The position numbers were made by a program, and so were the translations under genes. A model generated the notes under the pieces. The model ran no database searches. It was not told the origin of the DNA and saw only the letters and a program-made list of their open reading frames with translations. From contig KE561208.1 in the NCBI GenBank assembly GCA_000442015.1, positions 1 through 31,834 on the forward strand: DNA of 31,834 bases. Reading direction: 5' to 3'. The DNA is from Rozella allomycis CSF55 (lineage: Eukaryota; Rozellomycota). Below are positions 2,330 through 10,189 of the stretch, in pieces. The number at the start of each line of letters is the position of its first letter. Positions within the stretch are counted from its first letter, which is position 1.

Positions 2330-5300
2330 TTAGTTTATTTGAAGTAAATTGGAGACTTTAGTTAATGCAATGTTCCATTTTGTTGATATTTCTGTGGTGA
2401 TTTTGTTGTTTGTAATTTTGAAAGAGGAATATTCACAGAAAACGAGATTGATGATATTGTTTTTGTAATCGATCCATTCGCATTTCAAGTTGAAGAATTC
2501 AATTGCAGTTTCTTTGTTGAAGGATGGGATGAAATCATTGAAGGGAGATTGAAAGTAGACATTGGCTATTCGAGAAGATTTATCGACAAAGAATAAATCT
2601 TGTTGAAATAATTGATTTTGATTTTTATCAAATTTTGTGATGATTTCAGAAGCAACTAGGAAAACAAAAGAAGATGAATTACTTAGAAAATGAACTTTAA
2701 TGTCAACAAATCTTTTTAACCAAATTTCGTCTATTCTTGAAAGTTGGATGAAATCTCTTTGATAGATTGCTGATTGATTTAAAAGAGATTCAGAAAGTTT
2801 CTTTATTTCACAAAAGAACGATTGATTTGCATTTAGGATTAGAATATCTTTTGAATAAGTGTTTGGATTTAAAAGAAAAAACTAGAAAAAGAATAAACGG
2901 ATTGATTACTCTGCAACGATACCCTGGTTTTAAAGATGAAAGAGATTCAGAAACTTTTTTGAAGACAATGAGAGCGAATTTATTTGATGATTTGAATGGA
3001 GTGTCACAAACTTCAATGCAAAGATTAGTTGATAAATCTGAGTTTGTTTCATTTAAATATTTTAATTCCATTTGATTTAAAGTTAATTTAAGATTAAAGT
3101 TGTAGAAAGACAAGGGTAATATTCTTGTAATGATAACATCTATGCAAGTGACAATACCACCATTTTTATTTATAGAATTTATGCTTGTTGGGATTATTGA
3201 TTTATTTAAACCAAGTTTTTCAAACCAAGCAGCTCTTTTGGTAGAATTTGAAAATAGTTTTAATTTCATTGATGGATTATTGTCTAGAATGTCACAACCT
3301 TCTTTTGACAGATATAAAGAATAATAAATATGAATTTTATCACCAATTTTTAATTTTTGTGATTTTATTGAATTTATTAAAGGTTGATCTATTGTAGCAG
3401 GCATTGAATACCAACCATCACAAACTTCAATTTCATTTTTATTTAAAAATATATTAGAAATAAAAACAATAAAATGTCTTTGTGGAATATCATCAGTTTC
3501 TGCAATCTTTTTTAAAATAGATCTTTTTGAATCTATAAATTCAATTTTGTATCTATAAACTAATTGTTCAATAACAATCTCTTTATTTAAAACATCAATG
3601 CTAAACCCTAACACTGAAATGTAGCTGGCCAACTTTAACACTATCAATCTGTAATGATTATTAACCCATTTTTCAGTTGGTTTTCTATTGGGATAAATTA
3701 ACTTACAAACATCTTCAAACGCTTTTGTTTTATTCCATCCATCTGCAAAAACATAATCTTCTGTCAAGAGTGAATCTACCATAAATCTATCTATTCATCT
3801 TTTAAAATTTACTTTGTTGCTTTAATTGGTTTTAAATTTAAATATTTCAAGGGTATTTTACATGTTGATTCTAATCTAAAGTTTATCTTGCAAATTTACT
3901 CATTGGAATTGGAAAGTCTGAAATTTCAAAAGATTTTTTAGATTTCTTTATTATTACAGGGGATGGGGAACATGCGTTGGGATGAAGCGACTTTTTAGAC
4001 TTTTTCAATCTAAACATTTTCTTTTCATTAGAAATCTTATTCTCATCAAAAATAGATTTTGCCTTTTCAAGTGAATCTCTCGTTATTTCTATCAATTTTC
4101 CATTCGCTGATTGAAACTGACTACATGATTCTTCATTGGTAACATCATTCTTAATAGAATCATCGTTGAATAACTGCTTAGCTTTGTTTAATGATTCTTC
4201 TGTCACACTAACTCTCTTGCCACCCCCTGTATTAAACCCTTGAAATGATGTTTCTTCTTCAAATAACACTTTAGCTTTGTTTAATGATTCTTCTGATACG
4301 TTAACCTTTTCCCCATCGGTAGTTTGAAATCCTTTGTACTCTACTTCCTCATTAAAGAAATCTCTCGCTTTATTAATTGATTCTTCTGATACATTAACCT
4401 TCGTGCCACCAGCCGTTTGAAATCCTTCAAAAGTTTTTTCTTCTTCAAACAACTCTTTGGCTTTGGTCAATGATTCTTCAGATATCTTGACCTTCTTACC
4501 ACCAGCTGTCTGAAATCCTTGAAAAGCCTTCTCCTCTTTAAACAACTCTTTAGCTTTGGTCAATGATTCTTCAGATACACTAACCTTCTTTCCGTCAGCT
4601 GTCTGAAATCCTTGAAACGCATTCTCCTCTTTAAACAGCTCTTTAGCTTTGGTCCATGAATCATCTGAGACATTAACCGTTTCACCTCCAATTGTCTGCA
4701 ACCCTTTAAATTCTACATTCACATTAAAGAACTCTTTGGCTCTATTTAATGACTCTTCCGATACTTTGACTTTCTTACCGCCCGCTGTTTGAAAGCCAAC
4801 ATATGACTCTTCTTTCGTATCCATAAAGAAATTGGAATCACTAGAGTTTGATTTAAGAAATATATTTTCATTTGAGTCTGGATTGGTTATTGTTTTAGTC
4901 ACGCAAGTTGAATTATCATCAGAAAAATATTCTATTCCATTCAGTAATGTTATTTCACTAGAATTTCTCTTTAAAGATTGTGTAGCTTGTTTCAATGTCT
5001 TCAATCGCACAGTGCTTGTTAGATCTCTTACTTTTTTATCCATCATCTCATGCAATAAACTCTCCTTATGATCTTTCCCTAGAAAATCGGTTACATTATT
5101 ATAAAACAATCTATATCTATTCCTTTCTTTCTTCTCACAAGATCTTATGAGATTTTTTGAAAGGTCATCAAGCTCATCATTATCTGATTCCCCCAGAATA
5201 TCATTGTATTTTCTCTTTCCTCCTGCATCCAACAAATTTATTAGCCATTCATCCAAATCATCTCCAGAATCATCAACTCTGCTCTCAAACACATTATACA

Positions 5301-5592
5301 AGTATTCATCACCATTAGATCTATCTGAAGGCAATATGACATCATCCTTTCCCCATTTACCATATGAATGATTCATAGAAGTATTGAATTTTCTCTTTGC
5401 AACTTTATTTAACCTTTTTGATTTTAAATTCTTTGTTTTCTCTACGTTTGGTGTTTCCAAACTTTCATTCCAAAGTTCTTGTAAACTCTTATTGTTTATA
5501 TCTGCTGGAAGTGGCAAAGGCGTTCCATCTATATTGGTTCCAAATTTATCTTCTTTGGATCTGTCTTTTTTTGCTTTATTGTACTGTATCAT
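2330..5592 (-). CDS. BRCA2: BRCA2 homologue with eight BRC repeats
   Basis: Homologous-recombination mediator that loads Rad51 onto single-stranded DNA. Four exons (5592-3900, 3870-3813, 3786-2910, 2881-2330) are joined over introns of 29, 26 and 28 nt, giving 1059 residues. Residues about 260-515 contain eight BRC repeats spaced about 31 residues apart, of the form F-x-T-A-G-G-K-K-V followed by SEESL-x-K-A-K-x-L-F. The helical domain and OB1 follow, recognisable by EKWVNNHYRLIVLKLASY, a V-x-EQL-x-YRY motif and DGWYSMPATID. After the third intron comes the OB2/OB3 part (GYRC joined to RFFLLNP, matching the family 'GkrYRiyhL'). The N terminus is acidic and disordered. The C terminus is short. 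The protein is far smaller than human BRCA2 but domain-complete. An E2F-like site lies 27-37 bp upstream of the start codon. Confidence 0.93.
4050..4803 (-). repeat. Eight tandem BRC repeats in BRCA2
   Basis: An array with a period of about 93 bp encodes eight BRC motifs. In coding order the cores read FQTAGG, LQTIGG, FQTADG, FQTAGG, FQTAGG, FQTTDG, FNTGGG and FQSANG. The FxTA Rad51-contact tetrapeptide is intact in repeats 1, 3, 4 and 5 only. The second half (EESL...KAK.LF) is conserved in nearly all repeats. Repeats 3 and 4 are close copies, indicating recent duplication or gene conversion. Repeat 8 is the most diverged. Confidence 0.9.
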
Positions 5593-6689: not shown

Positions 6690-9600
6690 TTACCAAGAGA
6701 TGGAATTGAATCTATCTATACTTTTTGAAGCCACTTGANACCAAGAGATGGAGTTGAATCTATCTATACTTTTTGAAGCCACTTGAACATCTTTAGCGAC
6801 TCTTTTTCTCATGTAAAAGATTGGACAGTCGGAAGCAGAACATAAAACTTCTTGGTGTAGAGAACCTTGACATCTTTGACATTGAGTCCAAAGTCTAGCA
6901 AATTTGATTTCTAATTCGTTCAAGTTTAACAAATGTTTGTTGTAAATTTCAGAAATATTTGCGATACAATTTTTGCATACGGGAACGTTTTCATTTTTTA
7001 ATGGAGCTTTGCAGCCGAGACAAGTTTGTTTTTTGACTGTGAATTTGCTCATGATGCTGTTAGTTGAGGTAGCGACTTGAATGACTCTGGTGTGATCACC
7101 GGTTAAGAGTTCATTTGGGTTTTTCATTATGGGTTCAAATATGCGAAGAAGGGGTTTAGCTAGTTGATTGTTCAAGTAGTATTTGGTGTCTATTGGAAGA
7201 TTGTGTTCTAGAACGTAGATTGGATCTTCTGATTTTTCATAAGCAGCGGAACCTTTTGGAGATTGAATGATAACGTAAGCGACTCTGTCACCTAGATTGG
7301 GAGCAGAACCAGCATCTCTCTTTTTCATTCTTTCAGCTAATTCAGCATGGGCTTGTTTGTTTGCATAATCATCACCTTTATTTAAAGAGAGATTAGACAG
7401 ATACCAGTTTTGCTGAGTGCTTTTGTGATGACTAGTTGGGAAAGATCAATTTTGTTTTGAAGTAAATCTGAAATAACTTGCTTTGCATAACTAATTAAAG
7501 AAGAATGATAGAAATCCTTACTTTTTAGCACCTTGAACGTTTCTATCAATGAGGATCATTCGTAGACAAGTATCAATAACAACTTGAACTAGTCTACAAT
7601 TATCTCTTCTAACAGTTTCAATTCCTTTGGTGTCCATTTTGTCATACTTGTCAGGGTTTGTCCAATATAAACCAGCGTATCTCTTTTTGTTTATTAAAAG
7701 ATAAGGAAAATAAACTTTTTCAAATTCTAATTTGATTGGATTGATGAAAGAAGAAGAAACAAATTTAGCAGCTTCATTTCCCAACTCCATTGCATCTTTT
7801 AGATTGTCAACACCAAACTTGACCATTACAGAATCAGTGTCACCATAAATAACTTTGGCATTAAATTTATAACCATTTTGAATTGTGTATTTCTCTTCAA
7901 CCAACAATTTAGTCTTTTCAATCATCATTCTACCAAACGAAGTAACACTTTGTGATATTTGAATACATGGTAGTTTCCCAATAGTAGCACCAGTGAATCC
8001 ATAAACAGAATTAGCACTAATTTTTAATGCTAATTGTCTTCCATCTAGAACAGCTCTTTTAAATGGATCTTTTTCATTCTTTAAATCATTTTTAGCTCTT
8101 TTTCTAGCTGAAATCAATTCTTCTAAAATAATTGGCAATAACCCTTTTCTCTTTTTATTACTCAAAAATAAATCTATTCTCAAATTCTTTTATTAAAATA
8201 CCTCCAGATGGAGTTCTAATGTAATCTTCATTATTTAATTTATATTTTTCAATTGAATTTAAATTTAACAATGTTGAATAACAAAGATTGTGTGCCATCA
8301 TTATAGATGGATAAAGTGATGCAAAATCTAACGTTGCAATTGGCAAATCATAATATCCCTTAATTGGCTCAATAACTGTTGCTCCTTCATACTGTTCTTC
8401 TGTCACTTCTACTCTCATTGCTGGTATTATCAAATCATGTTCAGCTGCCTTTCTATACAACTGTGACACTACTTTGACTTGTTGTCCCCTAGACAATAAA
8501 AAGTTAAACGGAACCCCTTTTAATAGTGATTATAAATAGTTACCTATTAAATATAGATTATAAATGGTTACCTATTTTAATAGTCACTACACTCATTACC
8601 TATTTATTTCCTTACTACATTCATTACCTGTTACTCTCGCCATTTCTATGTAATTGATTAAAGACATTAATTTATCAATCAATCTTTGTGGCAAATACGC
8701 ATCCTTTCATTTTCTCATTTAATTTTTACTTTTAAACAATAAACAGCCAATCTTCTTCTAGTCTCTTCATTTCCATTCTGCAAATCTGTAATAATTGAAT
8801 GCTGAACATCCTCTTTCTGCTCTCCAAGAAAATGAGCACAAACTGAATTCAACGTATAACTTCTCAATTTATAATCTCTTTGAATAACCTGAAGCATATC
8901 CATATGCAATCTCCCTTCCATGGTCAACGCTTTACTCTCTCGCGTTCCATACGCTTTAGATGAAAACGTCGTATCCTTTGCTATCGTTTTACTCTCACTA
9001 ATCCTCCCCAAATAATTAAACTTTTCCAACTTTAACGCCTTTGCTCTATCCAACAAATATGGCCAATCAAAATTGCTTATATTATATCCAACTATCACAT
9101 CCGCATCGATCCTCACAAAAAACTCTTTCCACGCCATCAACAACTCTTCTTCAGTCTCAAAACTATACACATCAGACCCAACTATATGCGCACAACTCTT
9201 CAACGTAAACACATTCCTTATAAACGGCTGTCCTTGTCCATGCACTGTCACCATATTCGCTATCTGAATCACTGAATCTTCATTCGCATCTGGAAACACC
9301 CCCTTCCTCCCTGCACACTCTATATCAAACGATAATATCCTCAACGGCGCCAACTTTTGCCACTCTCCTTCAGGCAAATGACTAGTCAAATCTTCATAAT
9401 ACACCTTTAACACCCAAATCAACTTCATTTACTTCAACTTCTAATTGACACGGCGTGTTTTTATTCTCAATCAAATTATATTTCCCCTTTTGCAATTCAA
9501 TCCAACTCATCCCTCTAATCTCACAATCAATCATAAACCTCATTATAAACCCCAAATTACTCTCAAACGTACTAAAACTCACATTCATAAACTTTCCAAA

Positions 9601-10189
9601 CGACATCCCTCCCTCCAACACCCTCTTCGCTCCATTCACATGCGTCGGCAAACTACACACAATCTTTATATACGGCGACTTTACATCCCCATGGTACCCA
9701 TATATATTCTCCTTTTTCACAATCTCTGTCCAAACTATACTGCCTACTCCAACCCTCTGCTCCAACGACACTTTAAAACTATCCAAATCATTCTCTGAAA
9801 ACCCATTCGGCGCAGCAACATACAAGTATGGGAAAAATCCATGCACATGGCAAACTACACTATGCTCCTCACTAGTCACCCCATACAATCTCAACACCGG
9901 CGCACTAGTCAGCCCTTCGGCTCTGCTATTTCTTTGCTTTACAATATCATGCACACCACTCTTGTAATCATCAATCTCTATTTGCTGGAACACCAAATTC
10001 ATCGTTGCACTGTCCCAGTCTGGAACCTTGGGCCGTTCCCATCTTTCATGCGCTGGCGTATCTTTTATAATTTCAGTCACTGCCTTTACCTTCAGGATTA
10101 TACAGCCGCTCCAACTCTTTTTCAAAAGTTGATTCACACACCTTTTTACGCGACGAAGCTGGCTCTTCTTCTAAAGAATGTTTTGTCAT
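6690..10189 (-). CDS. POL3: DNA polymerase delta catalytic subunit
   Basis: Replicative B-family polymerase with 3'-5' proofreading. Eight exons (10189-10090, 10061-9433, 9404-8730, 8703-8628, 8516-8202, 8173-7522, 7490-7405, 7375-6690) give about 1056 residues once a 48-bp false duplication around the n at 6739 is removed. Introns are 28, 28, 26, 111, 28, 31 and 29 nt. Exonuclease motifs are intact: Exo [11 protein letters not shown], Exo [12 protein letters not shown], and Exo III YCLKDA, which is formed across an intron. Polymerase motifs A (DFASLYPSI), B ([13 protein letters not shown]) and C (YGDTDSV) are also intact. The C terminus carries CysA (CLGC...CKNC) and CysB (CQRC...CSASDC), the zinc and iron-sulphur sites. 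The start gives MTKHSLEEE, close to the usual N terminus. The fourth intron is the tandem array at 8517-8627. Confidence 0.95.
6692..6786. other. Unmerged contig overlap at n 6739
   Basis: Bases 6692-6738 and 6740-6786 are the same 47-bp sequence with one difference (gaattg versus gagttg), separated by a single n. The unit encodes the last residues of POL3 ([11 protein letters not shown]), so the apparent C-terminal duplication is an assembly artefact. Confidence 0.85.
8517..8627 (-). repeat. Intron made of four abutting intron-like units
   Basis: The fourth POL3 intron is 111 nt and divides without remainder into four units in coding order: 8627-8600 (28 nt), 8599-8572 (28), 8571-8544 (28) and 8543-8517 (27). 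Every unit begins GTAAT or GTAAC and ends ATAG or AAAG, so each boundary is AG|GT with zero bases between. Each unit has the length and ends of an ordinary intron in this genome. Units 1 and 2 share GTAATGAxTGTAGT; units 3 and 4 share ATTTATAATC; units 2 and 4 share ACTATTAAAA near the 3' end. Removing the whole block restores the conserved [17 protein letters not shown] of DNA polymerase delta. Confidence 0.9.

Follow-up and report, generated by a model that had tools for sequence, protein, structure and literature searches.

The POL3 array

The 111-nt intron in the POL3 gene of Rozella allomycis CSF55, a fungal parasite of the phylum Rozellomycota, is probably a minisatellite of complete minimal U2-type introns that abut with zero-length exons between them, one among several tens of arrays of this kind in the genome, and it would be removed stepwise. 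The gene lies in a 31,834-nt stretch of contig KE561208.1 (positions 1 to 31,834, here called the window). An earlier note on this DNA had described the intron as units of 28, 28, 28 and 27 nt, each GTAA...AG with no base between them, and on the minus strand from 8627 to 8517 this is exact (Table 1). All four units carry the GT...AG ends of U2-type introns, and AG and GT are juxtaposed with zero exon bases between units, as at sites of recursive splicing. The open reading frame of the exon upstream of the array matches yeast Pol delta at 1.4e-93, and excising exactly 111 nt yields a POL3 protein that aligns to yeast Pol3 (3iay) with a gap-free junction. We took the array boundaries from this protein alignment; the gene finder misplaced the array, at 8599-8453. 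The units also have the size of normal introns, as had been claimed: single introns of POL3 measure 26-31 nt, with those in the gene model at 28, 28, 26 and 28 nt and another outside the model at 31 nt.

The core identities of units 1/2 and 3/4, which the note had taken to be related, both lie above the 95th percentile for units of different arrays (0.652), the former barely. Units 2 and 3 stand at background level, leaving blocks 1-2 and 3-4 without detectable relatedness. A single founder of the four units is thus not obvious, the 5' pair being unrelated in sequence to the 3' pair and opposite to it in G/C composition.

The array also coincides with a break in the deposited annotation. Our POL3 model (845 aa) is 92% identical over its full length to an R. 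allomycis CSF55 protein, the next match being 67% identical over 95%, and the two disagree at four of the positions that both cover. In the deposited CSF55 POL3 (P0121), 58 residues spanning the array position are missing, apparently because gene prediction failed at the array. Because of this gap, other Rozella gene models may likewise be broken at arrays. A published survey gives an intron density for Rozella of 2.5 per kb (PMC8476143).

Table 1. Units, flanking exons and comparison introns of POL3 in the window
Feature	Position	Strand	Remarks
Whole tandem intron array, 111 nt	8517..8627	-	phase 1, between MARVT-G and VPFNF
Unit 1, 28 nt, GTAATGAATG...ATAG; full letters GTAATGAATGTAGTAAGGAAATAAATAG	8600..8627	-	
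Unit 2, 28 nt, GTAATGAGTG...ATAG; full letters GTAATGAGTGTAGTGACTATTAAAATAG	8572..8599	-	core identity 0.67 to unit 1
Unit 3, 28 nt, GTAACCATTT...ATAG; full letters GTAACCATTTATAATCTATATTTAATAG	8544..8571	-	core identity 0.52 to unit 2 (background level)
Unit 4, 27 nt, GTAACTATTT...AAAG; full letters GTAACTATTTATAATCACTATTAAAAG	8517..8543	-	core identity 0.81 to unit 3
Exon 5' of array (DAYLPQRL...MARVT), last bases AG	8628..8703	-	
Exon 3' of array (GVPFNFLL...), first base G	8202..8516	-	
Single intron, 26 nt (comparison)	8704..8729	-	exon junction CLK/DAYLP same in yeast Pol3
Single intron, 28 nt, donor GTATTT (comparison)	8174..8201	-	
Single intron, 28 nt (comparison)	9405..9432	-	junction EVE/VYYED same in CSF55 protein
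Single intron, 28 nt (comparison)	10062..10089	-	junction same in CSF55 protein

Intron arrays across the Rozella genome

The POL3 array had been presented as a lone curiosity, a view that has to be corrected, as the feature is genome-wide. Searching the 9.97-Mb assembly (213 contigs) for AGGTAA-N18..26-AGGTAA-N18..26-AGGTAA returned 53+61 = 114 matches, against 1+2 = 3 for the backwards control. Among the 100 of these 114 three-junction matches listed, there are at least 53 distinct arrays on at least 25 contigs, the longest appearing as six overlapping matches. For closer analysis we used the window and 24 stretches of the assembly, 18 of them picked for array-pattern matches, 2 for DNA polymerase matches, 2 for arrays and 2 unselected; no array of at least three units was found in the two unselected stretches. 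Chaining of three or more units produced 41 arrays, of which 39, with 160 units, were kept after trimming: 17 with four units, 12 with three, 7 with five, and single arrays of 6, 7 and 8 units. The longest, with 8 units, lies at L039:2169-2399 (+) on contig C158, and its units 3, 4 and 5 have identical cores.

Removal of whole arrays restores conserved protein in four genes. Besides POL3, gap-free alignments cross two arrays of TOP2 (MTDQ/DHDGSH and KYYK/GLGTS), an 89-nt array of an SLH1/ASCC3-like helicase (IK/VLFCTATLAWG; 89 is not a multiple of three) and a 91-nt array of POL1 (LDQ/GILPKL). Ten open exons adjoining arrays were searched against Pfam; two belong to one HYDIN-like gene, three to dynein heavy-chain stretches, and the others to a Sec63-domain protein, a glycogen debranching enzyme, a Sec7 protein and a ubiquitin-activating enzyme, with one lacking a match. 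Given this diversity, the arrays are not bound to one gene class.

Some of the individual models need care. The counts of 30 arrays and 140 single introns used below for the gene models are approximate, with fewer than half of the dimers checked by homology. In L025 the array at 4347 is wrongly modelled: judged against CCT proteins, its 31-nt first 'unit' is presumably coding. The third chained unit of the L028 array at 4819 also reads as coding, the L040 model at 4148 was in the wrong frame and was corrected by hand, and some chained arrays have doubtful end units, for example the last unit of L020 at 4196.

Unit relatedness and array growth

Within arrays, neighbouring units are the most alike. 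Core identity falls from 0.643 for adjacent units (n=121) to 0.560 (n=82), 0.523 (n=43) and 0.490 (n=16) for units two, three and four apart, while units of different arrays average 0.505. This decay with distance fits tandem duplication followed by divergence, and related tandem units of tens of bases each are one mark of a minisatellite. We therefore find the earlier proposal of growth by tandem duplication borne out for arrays in general, with the qualification that descent of the POL3 units from a single founder is not evident. On this similarity pattern and the two versions of a TOP2 array described below, the arrays probably behave like minisatellites in which the repeat unit is a whole intron.

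The borders of the units suggest a register for such growth. A G stands directly before 28 of the 30 modelled arrays, compared with 67 of 140 single introns (Fisher p 1.5e-6), and directly after 25 of 30, compared with 56 of 140 (Fisher p 1.4e-5). Because G flanks the arrays on both sides, the outer units are bordered by AGG as well. In the mechanism we propose, slippage or unequal exchange would lengthen and shorten arrays in register with the direct repeat AGG(T) found at the borders of every unit. Removal of any run of units would leave a valid shorter array, since every AG/GTAA junction is both an acceptor and a donor. If the messenger RNA (mRNA) is the same whatever the order of splicing, changes in unit number should be nearly neutral and arrays should evolve fast.

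Two versions of arrays at assembly joins

The assembly contains single-N joins, and at many of them one stretch is repeated on either side. At the window joins 6739, 15913, 17281, 26853, 28708, 28789, 29914 and 30585 the flanks are duplicated over 27 to 317 bases at 88-98% identity. Judging from such flanks, the joins juxtapose two versions of one stretch, which may be haplotypes, strains or paralogues alike. The joins break gene models, for example at the end of POL3.

Where a join falls beside an array, two versions of the array can be compared. The first array of TOP2 (L040) has 3 units (89 nt) in one version and 4 complete units (117 nt) plus an N-cut tail in the other, and the exon that follows shows 196 matches, 1 mismatch and 1 gap between versions. 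The second TOP2 array has 3 complete units and a cut one versus 5, and one base distinguishes the two copies of the 29-nt single intron that separates these arrays. At L019 there are 5 units versus 4 plus a tail, with 44/44 exon bases equal, and at L020 there are 4 units versus 3 plus a tail, the units being different, with 347 matches, 3 mismatches and 3 gap letters in the flank. A difference in number is proven only at the first TOP2 pair, because each of the other three pairs, although its units differ, has one N-cut version. The variation in unit number that the earlier note had suggested looking for is thus seen between the two versions of one TOP2 array (3 versus at least 4 units); no second version of the POL3 array was found.

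Unit size and a possible quantisation of intron length

Unit length is narrowly defined. In the fetched stretches, consecutive AGGTA words are spaced 28-31 nt apart in 142 cases and 24-27 nt apart in 15, with at most 5 cases in every other 4-nt bin from 8 to 99, and counts of the control word ATGGA stay level (3-13 per bin). Because the seed pattern admitted 24-32 nt, sampling favours this range, but not the sharp peak within it. Single introns span 25-32 nt and array units about 26-32 nt; the mean unit (28.7 nt, n=81) is slightly longer than the mean single intron (27.6 nt, n=140; p 2.4e-8).

A gene finder unaware of units, which allowed introns of 18-330 nt under a flat length prior and whose splice-site weights were trained on 20-34 nt introns from its own first pass, yielded a ladder of intron lengths near 28, 57, 87, 112 and 147 nt. 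The peaks at 25-29, 55-59, 85-89, 110-114 and 145-149 nt hold 98, 9, 7, 5 and 7 of 218 introns, among which many of the longer calls look unreliable. Of 60 N-free introns of 48-160 nt from this set, 29 split exactly into GT..AG units of 24-33 nt, whereas with shuffled interiors (200 shuffles) 0.48 did so on average and never more than 3. Among the remaining 31 are erroneous gene calls and arrays whose ends were misplaced. As the loci were mostly picked for matches to the array pattern, this decomposition speaks to structure and not to frequency.

One tentative extension, which we rate slightly below an even chance, is that the Rozella spliceosome is restricted to introns of about 28 nt; anything longer would then be a multimer and intron length would be quantised, with slippage in the AGGT register multiplying introns freely. 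If so, multiplication would be free because splicing any subset of units in any order would give the same mRNA. Quantised multimers would then be a running source of redundant introns, and new separate introns would arise once exon bases come between units.

Splicing of the arrays

With single introns of 25-32 nt as its substrates, the spliceosome most likely removes the arrays in several unit-sized steps, in any order and with the same mRNA as product. We infer this splicing of units as units from the internal donors, which are as consensus-like as those of single introns (A at position 4 in 109/118 and 118/140, respectively), and from the predicted pairing with U1. The genome has genes for U2 small nuclear RNA (snRNA; 139 bits) and U6 (88.5 bits), both above threshold, and a candidate U1 snRNA at 69.0 bits, just below the cut-off of 69.5. 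The U1 candidate carries AACTTACCTGG near its start, the complement of CCAG/GTAAGTT, so that each unit's AG is expected to reinforce the donor that follows it. No clear conserved branch-point motif was found in single introns or units; TTTAA occurs in 36% of 3' halves (13% when shuffled) and TAGT in 40% of 5' halves (16% when shuffled).

A number of observations weigh against this reading of the arrays as duplicating, independently spliced introns. The internal splice sites are predicted from DNA sequence. Simpler array patterns are less distinctive: the two-junction pattern has 252 matches against 103 in the control, and the less specific GTAA..TAGGTAA..AG only 210 against 136, on account of which it was dropped for counting. 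Most fetched loci were selected for array patterns, so that the frequency of arrays among them is not an unbiased one. In 20 equal-length pairs of sister units, a small sample, the difference is 0.10 at position 4 and 0.05 at position -3, compared with 0.18 in the interior, and this conservation at the junction is biased by array detection, which itself demands GT and AG. The arrays are also polar. G is higher in the first than in the last unit in 35/39 arrays and C is lower in 29/39, and in 31/39 the first unit is richer in purines than the C/T-rich last one. POL3 shares this polarity of G-rich 5' and C-rich 3' units with most arrays examined, and such blocks are unexpected if units are equivalent and independent. 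In the six modelled tetramers, composition changes in one step from unit 2 to unit 3, and 17 dimers show the effect weakly. As its cause, a polypyrimidine tract at the last acceptor is unconvincing, since the third unit of these tetramers is already as C-rich as the fourth.

The polarity may mean that long arrays are also read as one intron with distinct ends. The main rival to unit-wise removal is splicing in one step from the first donor to the last acceptor, the internal AG/GTAA junctions being harmless relics of duplication. Base composition depends on position as if an array had a single 5' end and a single 3' end, and according to PMC12403724 the complex intron of a stwintron is occasionally removed in one reaction. 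Relics would hardly be expected to keep their spacing at 28-31 nt and consensus-like internal donors while unit interiors diverge to background, and no homology-checked intron above 35 nt lacks unit structure, in the few genes checked. We regard one-step splicing as unlikely, though a serious contender. The composition of the 3' half, which is the complement of that of the 5' half, raises a different prospect, namely that arrays fold as hairpins of 5' block with 3' block and so join their outer splice sites, as do the inverted elements of some stwintrons and introners. The POL3 array (z -1.52), the 8-unit array (z -1.55) and, clearly, one trimer (z -3.6) fold better than shuffles, and 5' halves score 19.3 against the reverse-complemented 3' half of their own array and 17.9 against those of others (p 0.096). 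Over all 39 arrays the mean folding z is +0.17 (6 below -1, 11 above +1), the duplex energy of own halves is no better than that of foreign ones (36 arrays, mean z -0.19, p 0.46), and a reverse-complement signal between first and last units is absent (p 0.58). Pooled k-mers were not informative, as 5' and 3' blocks correlate both directly and as reverse complements. Hairpins, and with them an origin of the two blocks as inverted copies, are unsupported overall by the folding, duplex and similarity tests, and we consider them highly improbable. Even less credence is due to the notion that the arrays are artefacts of assembly. The many single-N joins with duplicated flanks would invite it, yet 38/39 trimmed arrays, that of POL3 among them, are free of N, the units have diverged, the stretches duplicated at joins are not of unit length and the CSF55 gene model, made independently, is interrupted where the POL3 array lies.

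Relation to known complex introns

Tandem minimal introns removed unit by unit would have several partial counterparts. In recursive splicing, as described for Drosophila and human, acceptor and donor likewise abut at AG/GT ratchet points and stepwise removal is possible. Those sites lie in long introns, whereas each Rozella segment is a minimal intron of about 28 nt, arranged in tandem with related neighbours, and its recursive use is proposed from sequence. Stwintrons of Hypoxylaceae and Lipomyces are, like the arrays, complex introns of more than one U2 intron in fungi. According to PMC12403724 and PMC7138796, they can be removed by consecutive reactions, sometimes by one. Stwintrons are nested, the internal intron splitting a splice element of the external one, whereas Rozella units abut, up to about 8 in a row, and none is interrupted, each keeping an intact GTAA and AG. 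Human UBC and VCX3A resemble the arrays in having dual-specific AGGT splice sites in tandem repeats, and the authors propose repeat expansion as a route to new introns (PMC10809524). The UBC units are coding ubiquitin monomers, whereas those of Rozella are non-coding minimal introns in many genes.

Introners and introner-like elements, reported in PMC7789003 (Amoebophrya) and PMC4457414 (fungi), are also spliceosomal introns that multiply. They turn up at new sites as repeated families, many with inverted repeats, whereas Rozella units resemble mainly their neighbours and form no general hairpin. The fetched arrays do not form an introner family (0.505 between arrays against 0.643 for neighbours), no genome-wide search for one having been made. 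Ciliate intron-length classes were set aside as a parallel, since those of PMC5014332 are not multiples of one unit, and the word 'tandem' is absent from its main text. No report of tandem arrays of minimal introns stands among the literature matches listed, though the Rozella genome paper (James et al. 2013) may mention them. The arrays are possibly a new variant of complex introns, perhaps recursively spliced, with recursive splicing, stwintrons and the UBC sites as nearest relatives.

How introns multiply is an old open question, and few intermediates have been caught in the act. The Rozella genome appears to hold tens of them, from near-identical units (C158) to fully diverged ones, which makes both the independent, any-order splicing of abutting minimal introns and a fixed intron length testable in one organism.

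Other repeats in the window

The window holds two further tandem repeats. The gene at 3883-5592 (-) contains 6.6 repeats of 93 nt (31 aa; GFQTAGGKKV-like) at 4178-4794, which we take to resemble the BRC repeats of a BRCA2-like protein. Outside the gene models, a 22-nt unit is repeated 7.2 times at 19176-19338 with a 96% match.
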